DNA from: a virus
Virus record (IMG/VR): IMGVR_UViG_3300015263_000542
Span: 1-21,387 of that record
Length of the DNA stretch: 21,387 nt
Direction: 5' to 3' (one strand)
The stretch's first letter is position 1, and each line of letters opens with the position of its first letter. The translations under genes and the position numbers were made by a program. Below the pieces are notes generated by a model. The model made no database searches and was not told the origin of the DNA. It worked only from the letters and a program-made list of their open reading frames with translations. Positions 12,090 through 18,051 of the stretch are shown here, in pieces.

Positions 12090-12563
12090 TTAGTCCTTGG
12101 GGGTGACATCGATGACACGGCCCCCGGCAGCCGCCACCCAGGCGTCGGAGGATGGAGCGGCGGGTGGGGCGGCGACGACGTAGAGGTTGACGTCAGCGGC
12201 CGGGGCCGGGGCGTTTTTCTGGGGTCCGAAGCCGATGGCCTTGGAGGACTTATCGGCGATGTCCGTGAGGTCCTTGGTCGACATCGGGAAGTTCGTTTCG
12301 AGGCGCTCGGCGATCCGTTCCCAGGCTTTGGCGGCGACGCCCCGGATGCGGTCCTCGACGGAGAGTCGGATGAGGGGGTCGACGAGTTCGGCCTTCCGGG
12401 CCTCGAGACGTTCCTGGAAGGCGGAAGAGTTGATGACGATCGACAGCCAGGCGGCGGAGAAGCCGAACATATCGGCGATCTCGTTCTGGGTCAGTTGCGG
12501 CTGGGCGATCATGGTGTCGATGACCATGTCGTGATGCCAGCGGACGGATGCAATTTCGGGCAT
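12090..12563 (-). CDS. Terminase small subunit
   Basis: The product (157 residues from ATG 12563) is the DNA-recognition part of the packaging motor. A helix-turn-helix is visible near residues 20-50 (QPQLTQNEIADMFGFSAAWL, then SIVINSSAFQERLEARKAEL), the usual form of small terminase N-termini. The middle is helical (multimerisation) and the end is Pro/Ala-rich. The start at 12563 was chosen because GGAGG stands 6 nt upstream. The same frame stays open to 12872, but that extension is Pro/Ser/His-rich and lies in the control region, so it is not used. This is the first gene of the leftward block, with a candidate promoter directly upstream. Confidence 0.85.
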   Translation of the reverse strand: MPEIASVRWHHDMVIDTMIAQPQLTQNEIADMFGFSAAWLSIVINSSAFQERLEARKAELVDPLIRLSVEDRIRGVAAKAWERIAERLETNFPMSTKDLTDIADKSSKAIGFGPQKNAPAPAADVNLYVVAAPPAAPSSDAWVAAAGGRVIDVTPKD

Positions 12564-12588
12564 GGGATACCTCCGGGGGTCGCGGGCG

Positions 12589-12617
12589 ATTCTATCCCCA
12601 ACCCATTCTCCGTTAAA
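12589..12617 (-). promoter_or_regulatory. Candidate leftward promoter for terS and the late block
   Basis: On the minus strand, TTTAAC (12617-12612) is followed after 17 bp by TAGAAT (12594-12589). The -10 matches sigma70 consensus in five of six bases, the -35 in only three. It would start transcription about 20 nt ahead of the terS ATG at 12563 and leave its GGAGG in the leader. The -35 hexamer overlaps one copy of the TAAACCCCCGG direct repeat. It may need an activator. Confidence 0.35.
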
Positions 12618-12875: not shown

Positions 12876-13118
12876 TGCGAAAGGGTGACACCGCCCCAGT
12901 TAGGGCTAACTAACGGGGGATTGGCCGTGGCAGTCCGGGAGTCGGGGGTGATAGGCCCGGACTATGGGAATGGGGCACCCTATTGCATCCCTATTGCAGC
13001 CCTATAATCCTTATACGCTGGCTATCGGCCATCCTCCCCCCATTTCCCCGCGTTTTCCCGCTTGACACGATGCGTGAAATGCGCCTCTTTTTTCGGTCTC
13101 TCTGTGCCTCTCTCCTCA

Positions 13119-13148
13119 CTCATTTTGTTACAATTTTTTTTTTATGTA
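13119..13148. other. AT-rich island, possible DNA-unwinding element
   Basis: Within GC-rich surroundings, this stretch has CATTTTGTTACAA followed by ten T residues (13134-13143) and ATGTAG. It lies between two phased CCCTAT groups. No hairpin precedes the T-run, so it is not a standard terminator. An origin unwinding role is a hypothesis. Confidence 0.35.
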
Positions 13149-13253
13149 GATCCCCAAAGGGGGAGGAGGATGTGGTAGGGGGAGGGGAAGTGGAGGGTAG
13201 CAAGGAATGGGAGCCCCCGGGCGGGGGGGTCGGGCCCAAAAGGCGCCCTATAA

Positions 13254-13300
13254 GGATGCTAGGGCTCAAATAGGGAGCCAATAGGGATCCGCTAGCATCC
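13254..13300. repeat. Inverted repeat GGATGCTAG / CTAGCATCC
   Basis: Perfect 9-bp arms at 13254-13262 and 13292-13300 flank 29 bp that contain two ATAGGG copies. A third related TGCTAGC occurs at 13314-13320. This nested arrangement suggests a protein-binding complex rather than a transcript hairpin. Confidence 0.45.
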
Positions 13301-13366
13301 GGCCGTTGCTATATGCTAGCGACGCCCCTCTGCGCGCCCTTCGAGCGCCGGCTGGTGATAGGGGCA

Positions 13367-13381
13367 AACCCTATTAGGGTT
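13367..13381. promoter_or_regulatory. Palindromic candidate operator upstream of the early promoter
   Basis: AACCCTA-T-TAGGGTT is a perfect 15-bp odd palindrome, ending 18 bp before the -35 hexamer at 13400. Dimeric regulators bind sites of this form. Position upstream of -35 would suit an activator or an upstream-bound repressor. Confidence 0.45.
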
Positions 13382-13399
13382 CGCGGGCGAAAAAAACGC

Positions 13400-13428
13400 T
13401 TGCAGACTCGCCTCGGGGCCCCTATAGT
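13400..13428 (+). promoter_or_regulatory. Rightward early sigma70-type promoter
   Basis: TTGCAG (13400-13405) and TATAGT (13423-13428) are separated by 17 bp. Each hexamer matches the consensus at four to five positions, and an A-rich stretch (GCGAAAAAAACG) precedes -35. Transcription would begin near 13435, about 65 nt ahead of the first early ATG at 13502. Use by host RNA polymerase on entry is inferred. Confidence 0.68.
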
Positions 13429-13501: not shown

Positions 13502-14056
13502 ATGGCCGATACCGAAAAGACCCCGAAAATGAGCATCACTGCCGAAGAAGACGGCAGCCTGACCTATACCTTCGCCCACGGCGAGAAGGTCAGCGTCAAG
13601 CTGGAGGACTTCAGCGACACGGTGCAGCGCCAATGTGCCCTGCTGGGTCTGCGGACGAAGCTGCGGAACTTCACGGCCGCCGAGAAGGATGAAGCGGGCC
13701 AGACGCTGACGTCGGAGGAAATGGCCAAAAAGCTGATGACCGGCCTGAATGCGCTGAAGTCCGGCGCTTGGCGGACGGTCTCGGATTCGAAGGGCGGGTC
13801 GACGACTGCCTTCCTCGAAGCTGCGATCATGTACCGCCGCGACAAGGCCACGTCGCAAGGTCTGGAATTCACCGAGACGCCCGAGCAAGTCGCCGCCGCG
13901 CTGGAGGCGCTGGACGAAGCCCAAATCAAGCAACTCAAGGCTTCGACCGGCTTCAAGCTGGCGCAGGCCAAGGTTGCCGCTGCCCGCGCTGCCGAACGGC
14001 TGCAAAAGCTGGCGGCGCAGGAAGGGGCCCCGGCCAGCGACGCGGCACCCTTCTAA
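13502..14056 (+). CDS. Conserved-looking early phage protein, function unknown
   Basis: The ATG at 13502 has GGAG 7 nt upstream and is the first start after the early promoter. The product has 184 residues. Its N-terminal part is beta-like (MSITAEEDGSLTYTFAHGEK), followed by helices (LEDFSDTVQRQCALLGLRTK), a Trp/Ser-rich middle (LKSGAWRTVSDSKGGSTTAF), and a long Ala/Gln/Lys helix or coiled coil (about residues 120-175). I recall similar proteins at the head of early regions of other proteobacterial phages but know no function. The coiled-coil end suggests it works as an oligomer. Leucine is coded mostly by CTG here, unlike the CTC-rich genes further right. Confidence 0.85.
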   Translation: MADTEKTPKMSITAEEDGSLTYTFAHGEKVSVKLEDFSDTVQRQCALLGLRTKLRNFTAAEKDEAGQTLTSEEMAKKLMTGLNALKSGAWRTVSDSKGGSTTAFLEAAIMYRRDKATSQGLEFTETPEQVAAALEALDEAQIKQLKASTGFKLAQAKVAAARAAERLQKLAAQEGAPASDAAPF

Positions 14057-14799: not shown

Positions 14800-15112
14800 G
14801 CGTTTGGGGCTCCGAGGGGCCCGGACGTAGTTGTAACAAGCGAGCCTCTAGATCGCCTCAGGAGCGCCCGGCCGGGCATCGGGCTATCTCGGCATGGCCC
14901 GGCCTCCGATCGGCCCGCCTGCGCCCGGCTAGCCCCCTCCGCGACCCCTTCCCTGCATGGCCCGGCTGGCTTGAAAGCGCGGGCGGGCGCACCCGGGCAC
15001 GCGTAGCAGGATCCATGCCAGAAGGCTAAGGGTTTCCCCCAATTCCCTATCCCCCCTAACCCGCCTATACTGGCCCTTCCACATCCTCGTCCTCACAACC
15101 CTTGCCACCCAC
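14800..15112. other. Intergenic region before the second early unit
   Basis: About 310 bp without a convincing gene. It contains the 12-bp palindrome GCCCGGCCGGGC (14866-14877), two direct copies of GCATGGCCCGGC (14892-14903 and 14955-14966), one CCCTAT hexamer (15045-15050) and a -10-like TATACT (15066-15071) without a good -35 at 17 bp (TTCCCT at 15043-15048). Open frames here are short and lack ribosome sites. A start for the second unit is expected here because a strong terminator precedes it. Confidence 0.55.
15043..15071 (+). promoter_or_regulatory. Weak candidate promoter of the second early unit
   Basis: TATACT (15066-15071) matches the -10 consensus in five of six bases. TTCCCT at the proper 17-bp distance matches -35 poorly and overlaps a CCCTAT hexamer of the kind clustered in the main control region. 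If used, the start would be near 15078. Dependence on an activator or phage-coded factor would explain the poor -35. Confidence 0.35.
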
Positions 15113-16066: not shown

Positions 16067-16444
16067 ATGCTCGCATCCTTCGCCGATATGATCGCGGCCG
16101 ACGCTGCCGCCGAGAAGTCCCGGCCAGCCGCCGAACCTTACCTCGTCTCCACCTGGACCGACGGCGGCTACATGGCCCGGATTGTCATCACCGCCTGCGC
16201 TTGCGGCCAACGCTCCAAGCACCTCGACGGTCTGTTCCACATCGACATCGACAAGCGCACCGGCGGCCGACGTCTCACCACTCTCGGGCGCAATCCACAA
16301 TTCCCTCCGGGCGAACATACCGCCGAGTACGTCACCATCGACACATCCTGGTGCGCCCACTGCATCCCCGACCTCGGCTTCTCGAAGGCAGTCCACCTCA
16401 CCGAGCGCCAGCAACCCTACTCTCTCACCATCCGGGAGGAGTGA
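16067..16444 (+). CDS. Small protein with a possible zinc site, function unknown
   Basis: The product has 125 residues and begins at ATG 16067, with GGAG 9 nt upstream. Two cysteine pairs, C44/C46 (ACACGQ) and C96/C99 (WCAHC), are about 50 residues apart and could bind one zinc ion. The part between them is beta-like with basic residues (DKRTGGRRLTTLGRNPQF). The C-x-C spacing of the first pair is not the usual CxxC, so the zinc site is tentative. Its TGA overlaps the next ATG by one base. Confidence 0.72.
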   Translation: MLASFADMIAADAAAEKSRPAAEPYLVSTWTDGGYMARIVITACACGQRSKHLDGLFHIDIDKRTGGRRLTTLGRNPQFPPGEHTAEYVTIDTSWCAHCIPDLGFSKAVHLTERQQPYSLTIREE

Positions 16445-16908
16445 TGCACAACCTCCACGCCGCTCCCGACGACTCACCAGAGTACACCCTCTACGCCATC
16501 CTGCGGTACATCGACCTCAACGGCCCGATCCGTTACTCCGCCGGCATCTGCGATAACGTCGAAGACCTAAACGACAGCCTATTCGATCCGATCGAGAATG
16601 GAGACGAAAGCAGCTACAAAGTCAGCAGCATCTTTAACAAGTACCTGGCCTTCTCTGCCAACTCCTGGCCCGAGCACTCTGGCCATCTCTCTTACCCCAT
16701 CCCATCGCCCGATCCCAGCCTCAGCCCCCACGAAGCGTACAACGAATACGACAAGTGGGAAGTCTTCACCCCCTATGGCGACTCCCGTCGCCGCTACATC
16801 GAGCACCTGCTATGCCTACTCGAAAGGGACTACCCCTCACTCAAATCGCAGTACGAATCCCGATCGAACTCAAGGACGCCATCGACGCAGCCGTCGCCAA
16901 CCGCCTGA
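16444..16908 (+). CDS. Early protein with an ICDNV motif, function unknown
   Basis: The start chosen is ATG 16444, with GGGAGGA directly upstream. The same frame is open back to about 16201, but that part lies over the zinc-site gene and is His/Arg/Pro-rich, a sign of a shadow frame. The 154-residue product contains PIRYSAGICDNVEDLNDSLF near residue 30-50, a short GIC-N type motif that recurs, as I recall, in unnamed phage proteins. Trp/Tyr-rich stretches and a C-terminal helix (RRRYIEHLLCLLERDY) follow, then a Ser/Pro-rich tail that overlaps the next gene by about 97 bp. Confidence 0.7.
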   Translation: MHNLHAAPDDSPEYTLYAILRYIDLNGPIRYSAGICDNVEDLNDSLFDPIENGDESSYKVSSIFNKYLAFSANSWPEHSGHLSYPIPSPDPSLSPHEAYNEYDKWEVFTPYGDSRRRYIEHLLCLLERDYPSLKSQYESRSNSRTPSTQPSPTA

Positions 16909-17709: not shown

Positions 17710-18051
17710 ATGCGTATGCCCCGCGCCCTTACCATCTTCCTCGGCGCCGAACTCCAAGCGCGCTTCACTGAATCAGGTCTCTCTGACGCCGACTTCGCCA
17801 GGGATATCGCCACCCACCCGAAATGCCCGCCGCTCCCGGCCGGCTTCGAACTGACGGCGAACCACGTCGGCTCCCTGCGCCGCGACCTCCGCATCCCGGC
17901 GAACAACACAAGCAACGCCCGGGCAGCGGCTGCCGCCGAGCAACTGGCCCGCTACGAAGCCACCATCAAGGAACTGATCCAAAAGGTCACCCGCCTTGAG
18001 GCCGCCGTCGAAATGCTCAAGGCGCTGCCAGCCAACCGGGGCAGAGGCTGA
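17710..18051 (+). CDS. Helix-turn-helix-like protein with C-terminal coiled coil
   Basis: The start at 17710 is well supported: AGGAGA lies 6 nt upstream (ATG 17716 is a second in-frame option). The 113-residue product has a first part (about residues 10-65) with SDADFARDIATH and FELTANHVGSLRRDLRI. The pattern, a helix, a turn with a Pro-rich insert, then ANHVGSLRRDL, looks like a recognition helix of phage winged or helix-turn-helix domains. Residues about 70-105 form an Ala/Glu/Leu coiled coil (AAAAAEQLARYEATIKELIQ). It may be a dimeric DNA-binding regulator of the phage, or bind host chromatin. Function unproven. Confidence 0.7.
   Translation: MRMPRALTIFLGAELQARFTESGLSDADFARDIATHPKCPPLPAGFELTANHVGSLRRDLRIPANNTSNARAAAAAEQLARYEATIKELIQKVTRLEAAVEMLKALPANRGRG

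Follow-up and report, generated by a model that had tools for sequence, protein, structure and literature searches.

A mirrored 11-bp repeat ladder around a T-tract core upstream of the small terminase gene in a group of uncultured phages

The control region and its surroundings

The stretch of DNA analysed here, referred to throughout as the window, comprises an entire viral record of 21,387 bases, which is a fragment of a genome of roughly 40 kb. Its late block runs leftward and includes the small terminase, endolysin, large terminase and portal genes amongst others, its early block runs rightward and includes a PD-(D/E)XK exonuclease, and the control region lies between the small terminase gene and the first early gene (Table 1). 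The best relatives of the large terminase are found in uncultured phages of roughly 40 kb, including the complete MW202489 (40,250 bp, 52.6% large-terminase identity to the window), and two bacterial bins with related terminases belong to the Hyphomicrobiales/Rhizobiales, which gives a weak hint of an alphaproteobacterial host. The control region itself has no match to public phages by Blastn, and a search of viral contigs gave no relatives of the PD-(D/E)XK gene.

The most clustered non-repetitive hexamer of the window is CCCTAT/ATAGGG, which occurs 11 times when both strands are counted (plus strand at 12978, 12989, 13000, 13246, 13369, 13420, 15045 and 16771; minus strand at 13270, 13281 and 13358). 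Nine of the 11 copies fall within 12978-13425, where base composition would give 0.19 copies in 448 bp (Poisson P for at least nine of 6e-13, or ~3e-11 when corrected for the number of windows), and every other non-repetitive hexamer reaches at most 7 copies per 450 bp. The original prediction of nine copies where chance would give well under one is therefore upheld, all the coordinates it gave for the hexamer were correct on recount, including that of the copy before the second early unit, and the density elsewhere in the window is not equal to that of the control region. The copy at 16771 is probably a chance occurrence. A near-identical phage contig of 18.2 kb, which covers the late half and lacks the control region, has no copy at all.

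Phasing is equally distinct, as CCCTAT at 11 bp is the sole exact hexamer triple in the window at any period from 7 to 24 bp, and the 11-bp lag has a z of 4.5. It had been proposed that three groups of hexamers keep this step; the step itself holds, with the qualification that the third group (13358/13369) is a pair on opposite strands. A decamer said to recur inverted 292 bp away does so, as ATCCCTATTG at 12987 and CAATAGGGAT at 13279. When the control region is compared with its own reverse complement, most of the CCCTAT copies turn out to be rungs of two inverted arms (12978-13015 and 13286-13249) that are identical at 32 of 38 positions without a gap, each arm being a ladder of 11-bp units. 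The match scored 57 in a first comparison (32.0 +/- 5.8 in shuffles) and 56 in a second scan (21.8 +/- 3.2, with 0 of 200 shuffles as high). The arms are separated by ~230 bp, and between them lies an A+T-rich core that contains a T10 tract. The original prediction did not include this arrangement of the clusters as a pair of near-perfect inverted arms with a T10 tract between them. On this evidence the arrays in the window must be regarded as a real element of the protein-binding type.

Table 1. Features in and around the control region of the window
Feature	Position	Strand	Basis
Small terminase gene, other side of control region	12090..12569	-	Alignment and relatives; no library hit
Promoter-like site before small terminase, TTAACG-16-TAGAAT	12589..12616	-	Promoter scan, 9/12 consensus bases
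Left arm, three 11-bp units CCCTATTGCAT / CCCTATTGCAG / CCCTATAATCC, then TTATA	12978..13015	+	Inverted match to right arm
Core GTTACAATTTTTTTTTTA with T10 tract, between arms	13127..13144	+	Exact 18-mer search of IMG/VR
CCCTAT, inner end of right arm	13246..13251	+	Hexamer count
Right arm, CCCTATTGGCT / CCCTATTTGAG / CCCTAGCATCC / TTATA on minus strand	13249..13286	-	Inverted match to left arm
Third cluster, ATAGGG/CCCTAT pair at 11-bp step, one on each strand	13358..13374	.	Hexamer count
Early promoter-like TTGCAG-17-TATAGT after A7 run	13400..13428	+	Direct reading of sequence
First early gene, orphan family, ~50 related loci	13502..14056	+	Profile searches
Isolated CCCTAT, gap before second early unit	15045..15050	+	Hexamer count
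Isolated CCCTAT inside open frame starting near 16444	16771..16776	+	Hexamer count

One copy had been placed in the -10 of an early promoter. The overlap of the CCCTAT at 13420 with TATAGT at 13423-13428 is plausible as such a site, but the accompanying -35 (TTGCAG at 13400) matches only 3 of 6 positions and the promoter scan made no call there. On the other side of the control region the motif YTAAACNCCC is found upstream of the small terminase at 12612 and 12682, the first of these overlapping the predicted -35 of the leftward promoter, and it is also found upstream of the small terminase in several relatives (L250, L199, L206, L214, L216, L221 and L266).

Two small proteins had been put forward as partners of the array, a ribbon-helix-helix protein at 16812 and a helix-turn-helix-like protein at 17710. 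Neither gains support from protein families, public phages or structures: there is no convincing Pfam hit (best E 0.01, below family cut-offs), no PHROG hit, no match among public phages, and solved structures offer no meaningful relative. The model made of the 16812 protein from its single sequence is weak, with two helices and no strand. The product of the first early gene would be a better candidate for the binding protein than either of these, because its family accompanies the region in about 50 loci. Single-sequence patterns found no relatives of this gene in viral contigs and it was profiles that later gave these loci; the family has near-invariant G, A, W and A residues, sits beside the control region and is often present in two copies (as in L190 and L192). 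The protein has a confident structure model, with no Pfam family and no match in a fold search at E <= 0.001.

Conservation of the layout in related phages

The hexamer does not have a special role across viruses. Three CCCTAT at 11-bp steps were present in 108 of 2.9 million viral contigs scanned, and the control patterns were nearly as frequent (67 for the reversed word and 88 for a 12-bp step), so that the idea of CCCTAT arrays as a motif common to viruses was rejected. Two other arrays were seen in viral contigs, the 11-bp array gggtatNNNtaCCCTATCNATACCCTATNNATACCCTATCNATAcccccaa in ten AT-rich contigs, which is unrelated to the window, and gcaCCCTATTNCCACCCTATNNCCACCCTATNG, which five GC-rich contigs have in common. 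Nor is the hexamer enriched in the control regions of relatives, where 34 copies were found at 63 loci compared to 28.6 in shuffles; the hexamer itself is phage-specific. Conservation in related phages, which the original prediction had looked for, is thus absent for the word and present for its position, the inverted symmetry and the 11-bp spacing.

This layout was followed in 80 loci around relatives of the small terminase, of which 63 were non-redundant and had enough upstream sequence. In 20 of the 63 the non-coding region upstream of the small terminase contains long inverted arms that score above all of their own shuffles, and the same was true of none of 62 coding controls. These shuffles preserve dinucleotides and ignore phylogeny, near-identical loci having been removed, and all of the results come from sequence with thresholds that were chosen during the analysis. 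The arm sequences are unrelated between phages. In relatives the spacer has a length of 70-220 bp in most cases. It usually contains a T8-T10 tract, which is also present in most of the strong cases, and the orientation of the tract is nearly fixed relative to the small terminase even where the early genes are inverted (an exception is L244, with an A16 tract). Arms were not detected in about two thirds of relatives, including the complete MW202489, and these may be further diverged or may truly be without arms.

The core is the part whose letters recur. The exact 18-mer GTTACAATTTTTTTTTTA is found in only 7 other IMG/VR contigs, six of which belong to the same phage group as judged by the small terminase and/or the family of the first early gene. 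Six independent loci with a GTTACA-T9/T10 core, one of them a T9 variant, all have significant inverted arms, with scores of 40-106 compared to about 22 in shuffles and 0 of 200 shuffles as high in each case.

Phasing is also shared. With the window excluded, self-comparison of the arms of 16 other phages peaks at a lag of 11 (Stouffer z 5.15 with left and right arms taken together, compared to -0.6 for coding controls). The left and right arms of any one phage are similar, and the values for single arms are therefore safer: left arms alone give z = 4.0 at lag 11, and right arms alone give 3.3 at lag 11 and 4.5 at its harmonic, lag 22. Periodicity of the mismatches between arms was not significant. 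The closest relative with a control region (L003, 62% terminase identity) has the same ladder built from the unit GGCAGGTGCCT, and another (L208) has a GTTAA ladder at 11 bp.

Other repeats and sites occur in the same upstream regions. Identical 7-mers exactly 24 bp apart are found at 24 of the 63 loci (for example L260, L246, L265 and L221), compared to 2.2 expected and 4 in coding controls; the theme CCCGGGGATTAT is common to several, and they may be another conserved site. There is also a strong enrichment of sites that resemble sigma-54 (-24/-12) promoters (TGGCAYR-N4-TTGCW), with 31 in 19 of the 63 loci (among them L243, L244, L255, L259, L208, L200 and L269) compared to about 1.2 in shuffles and 0.8 in coding controls. 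A sigma-54 promoter cluster in the array of the window was considered and rejected, as the best score there, 10.8, is the array's own TTGCA repeat and none is present. In L224 CATATACCC is repeated at a 13-bp step at about 356-410 of the upstream region, with inverted copies nearby.

Possible functions of the element

Where a protein oligomerises on either side of a site that is to be opened or bridged, one would expect mirrored ladders such as these, with their units facing one side of the helix and an A/T core between them. The element has the appearance of a landing platform for a phage protein that evolves fast, most likely at the point where DNA replication starts, and a replication origin in which helically phased initiator sites surround an A/T core is the best reading, although we would hold it with somewhat less than even confidence. 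The suggestion that the hexamers belong to an uncharacterised binding system is thus well supported, and of the two roles first proposed for it, iterons of an origin and operators, it is the former that we prefer.

As an origin, the element would work as follows. Most of the CCCTAT copies are rungs of two mirror-oriented ladders, which flank the conserved A/T core in non-coding DNA in front of the small terminase gene, and the whole would act in cis. One phage-encoded protein would sit on each unit, on the same helix face, and would oligomerise on each arm such that the T-tract melts between the two oligomers, most likely for a bidirectional start of DNA replication. Protein and sites would co-evolve to give a different word in every phage, the A/T core being the conserved part and the ladder the variable part that confers specificity, and through the copy at 13420 the same protein may also regulate early transcription. 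As a rule, the iterons of plasmids are also phased with the helix and surround an A+T-rich site of opening (PMC5043065).

DnaA boxes, which many but not all iteron origins have, occur in some of these control regions. Inverted perfect DnaA boxes TTATCCACA are located in the two arms of L225 and a DnaA-box pair is found in the control region of L246/L248, and 6 boxes were seen in the 94.7 kb searched compared to about 0.7 by chance; only these two independent relatives have boxes, and the window has none. No initiator gene was recognised in the window, which is a 21-kb fragment in which most early proteins are orphans, cumulative GC skew in two complete relatives (L190 and L192) was uninformative and did not place an origin at the control region, and the literature that could be searched on phage origins describes none with this layout.

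A packaging start of the pac or cos type is the main rival. In this case the phased arms would be bound by the ring of the small terminase, and cutting by the large terminase would take place near the T-tract. The element is directly upstream of the small terminase in the window and in relatives, and the near-constant orientation of the T-tract to that gene despite inverted early genes suits packaging at least as well as an origin. There is also a precedent in SPP1, where pac comprises three sets of direct repeats and spans the small-terminase promoters, with repeat sets around the start of the small terminase in SPP1/SF6 and only moderate conservation of the repeats in SF6 (PMC4737164). Contig ends pile up as packaging would predict, since of the 80 loci 38 end within 2 kb upstream of the small terminase and 6 within 2 kb downstream of it, but assembly breaks in a variable region would yield the same picture and the breakpoints are scattered and differ between near-identical genomes. 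Near-complete contigs have only apparent assembly-type overlaps at their termini, and for complete-length contigs the overlap has in three cases a length of exactly 127 bp, a value taken to be the assembler's word length and not a physical end. As the terminal overlaps that were checked look like assembly artefacts, a packaging site is given a low probability.

An operator array would be about as improbable. Here a phage repressor or activator on the units would switch transcription between early and late, perhaps by bringing the two arms into a loop, as is known for ParR-parC of plasmid R1, where a split array surrounds a promoter (PMC5016525). Copies lie over the early -10 (13420), over a TATAAT (13000) and before the second early unit (15045), although the last is a single isolated copy and weak as evidence, and the conserved T-tract core is not a recognisable promoter. 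Furthermore, in ten relatives (L200, L211 and L260 amongst them) the family of the first early gene is on the small-terminase strand and runs toward the element, as if the early block were inverted, and control of the early promoter therefore cannot be the common function.

That the arms form a long stem in RNA is very unlikely. They pair at about 67-88% and plus-strand mismatches of the G-U type are slightly over expectation (74 vs 59.4, p 0.006), but once composition is accounted for there is no consistently better fold on either strand (mean -2.6 kcal/mol, 10 of 15 negative), there is no Rfam match and the 11-bp ladder is left unexplained. Least likely of all is a site for partition or silencing of the ParR-parC kind, to which a ribbon-helix-helix protein would bind. 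The phased repeats either side of a central region do resemble parC (PMC5016525), and a ribbon-helix-helix protein at 16812 had been proposed as a partner of the array, but that protein has no family match and a weak model, no ParR/ParM gene, partition ATPase or filament gene was recognised in the 21 kb of the window and no partition gene is annotated in the complete MW202489.

More tentatively, we would propose a wider class of viral cis-element. Across a phage family such elements would keep their symmetry, their 11-bp phasing and a T-tract core whilst the unit sequence is free to change, and the units may be recognised by a single phage protein which evolves rapidly and which gives co-infecting relatives separate identities as replicons, through incompatibility of origin or of packaging. 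In uncultured phages the sites for replication origin and packaging are hardly ever identified, as their sequence is not conserved, yet a T-tract flanked by inverted ladders of 11-bp units, in front of the small terminase gene, is recognisable although the letters differ. If confirmed, this would provide a means to locate the site in many metagenomic phages and would show how replicon specificity may diversify, and the question of how DNA replication starts in this phage group is made directly testable by experiment.

Comparison with known systems

The element resembles several known systems without being the same as any one. With the pac sites of SPP1/SF6 it shares repeats upstream of and into the small terminase gene that are only moderately conserved between relatives (PMC4737164); no pac site is described as having long inverted arms with 11-bp phasing and a T10 core. 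In ParR-parC of plasmid R1 a central region is likewise flanked by two blocks of repeats, each repeat of roughly one turn (PMC5016525), whereas here the arms are inverted and no partition genes are seen.

The plasmid iteron origins (P1, F, RK2 and pSC101) and ori-lambda also have replicon-specific, helix-phased sites beside an A+T-rich opening region (PMC5043065). Unlike these, the element described here has two mirrored ladders of 11-bp units that flank the A/T core, no recognisable Rep/O gene and units that are unrelated between relatives. In herpesvirus origins of the oriS type, inverted initiator sites flank an A/T spacer, and these are a few single boxes. The placing of inverted sites either side of an A/T spacer is alike in the two, with no homology implied, but in the window the few single boxes are replaced by ladders of 11-bp units and the spacer between them is about 230 bp.
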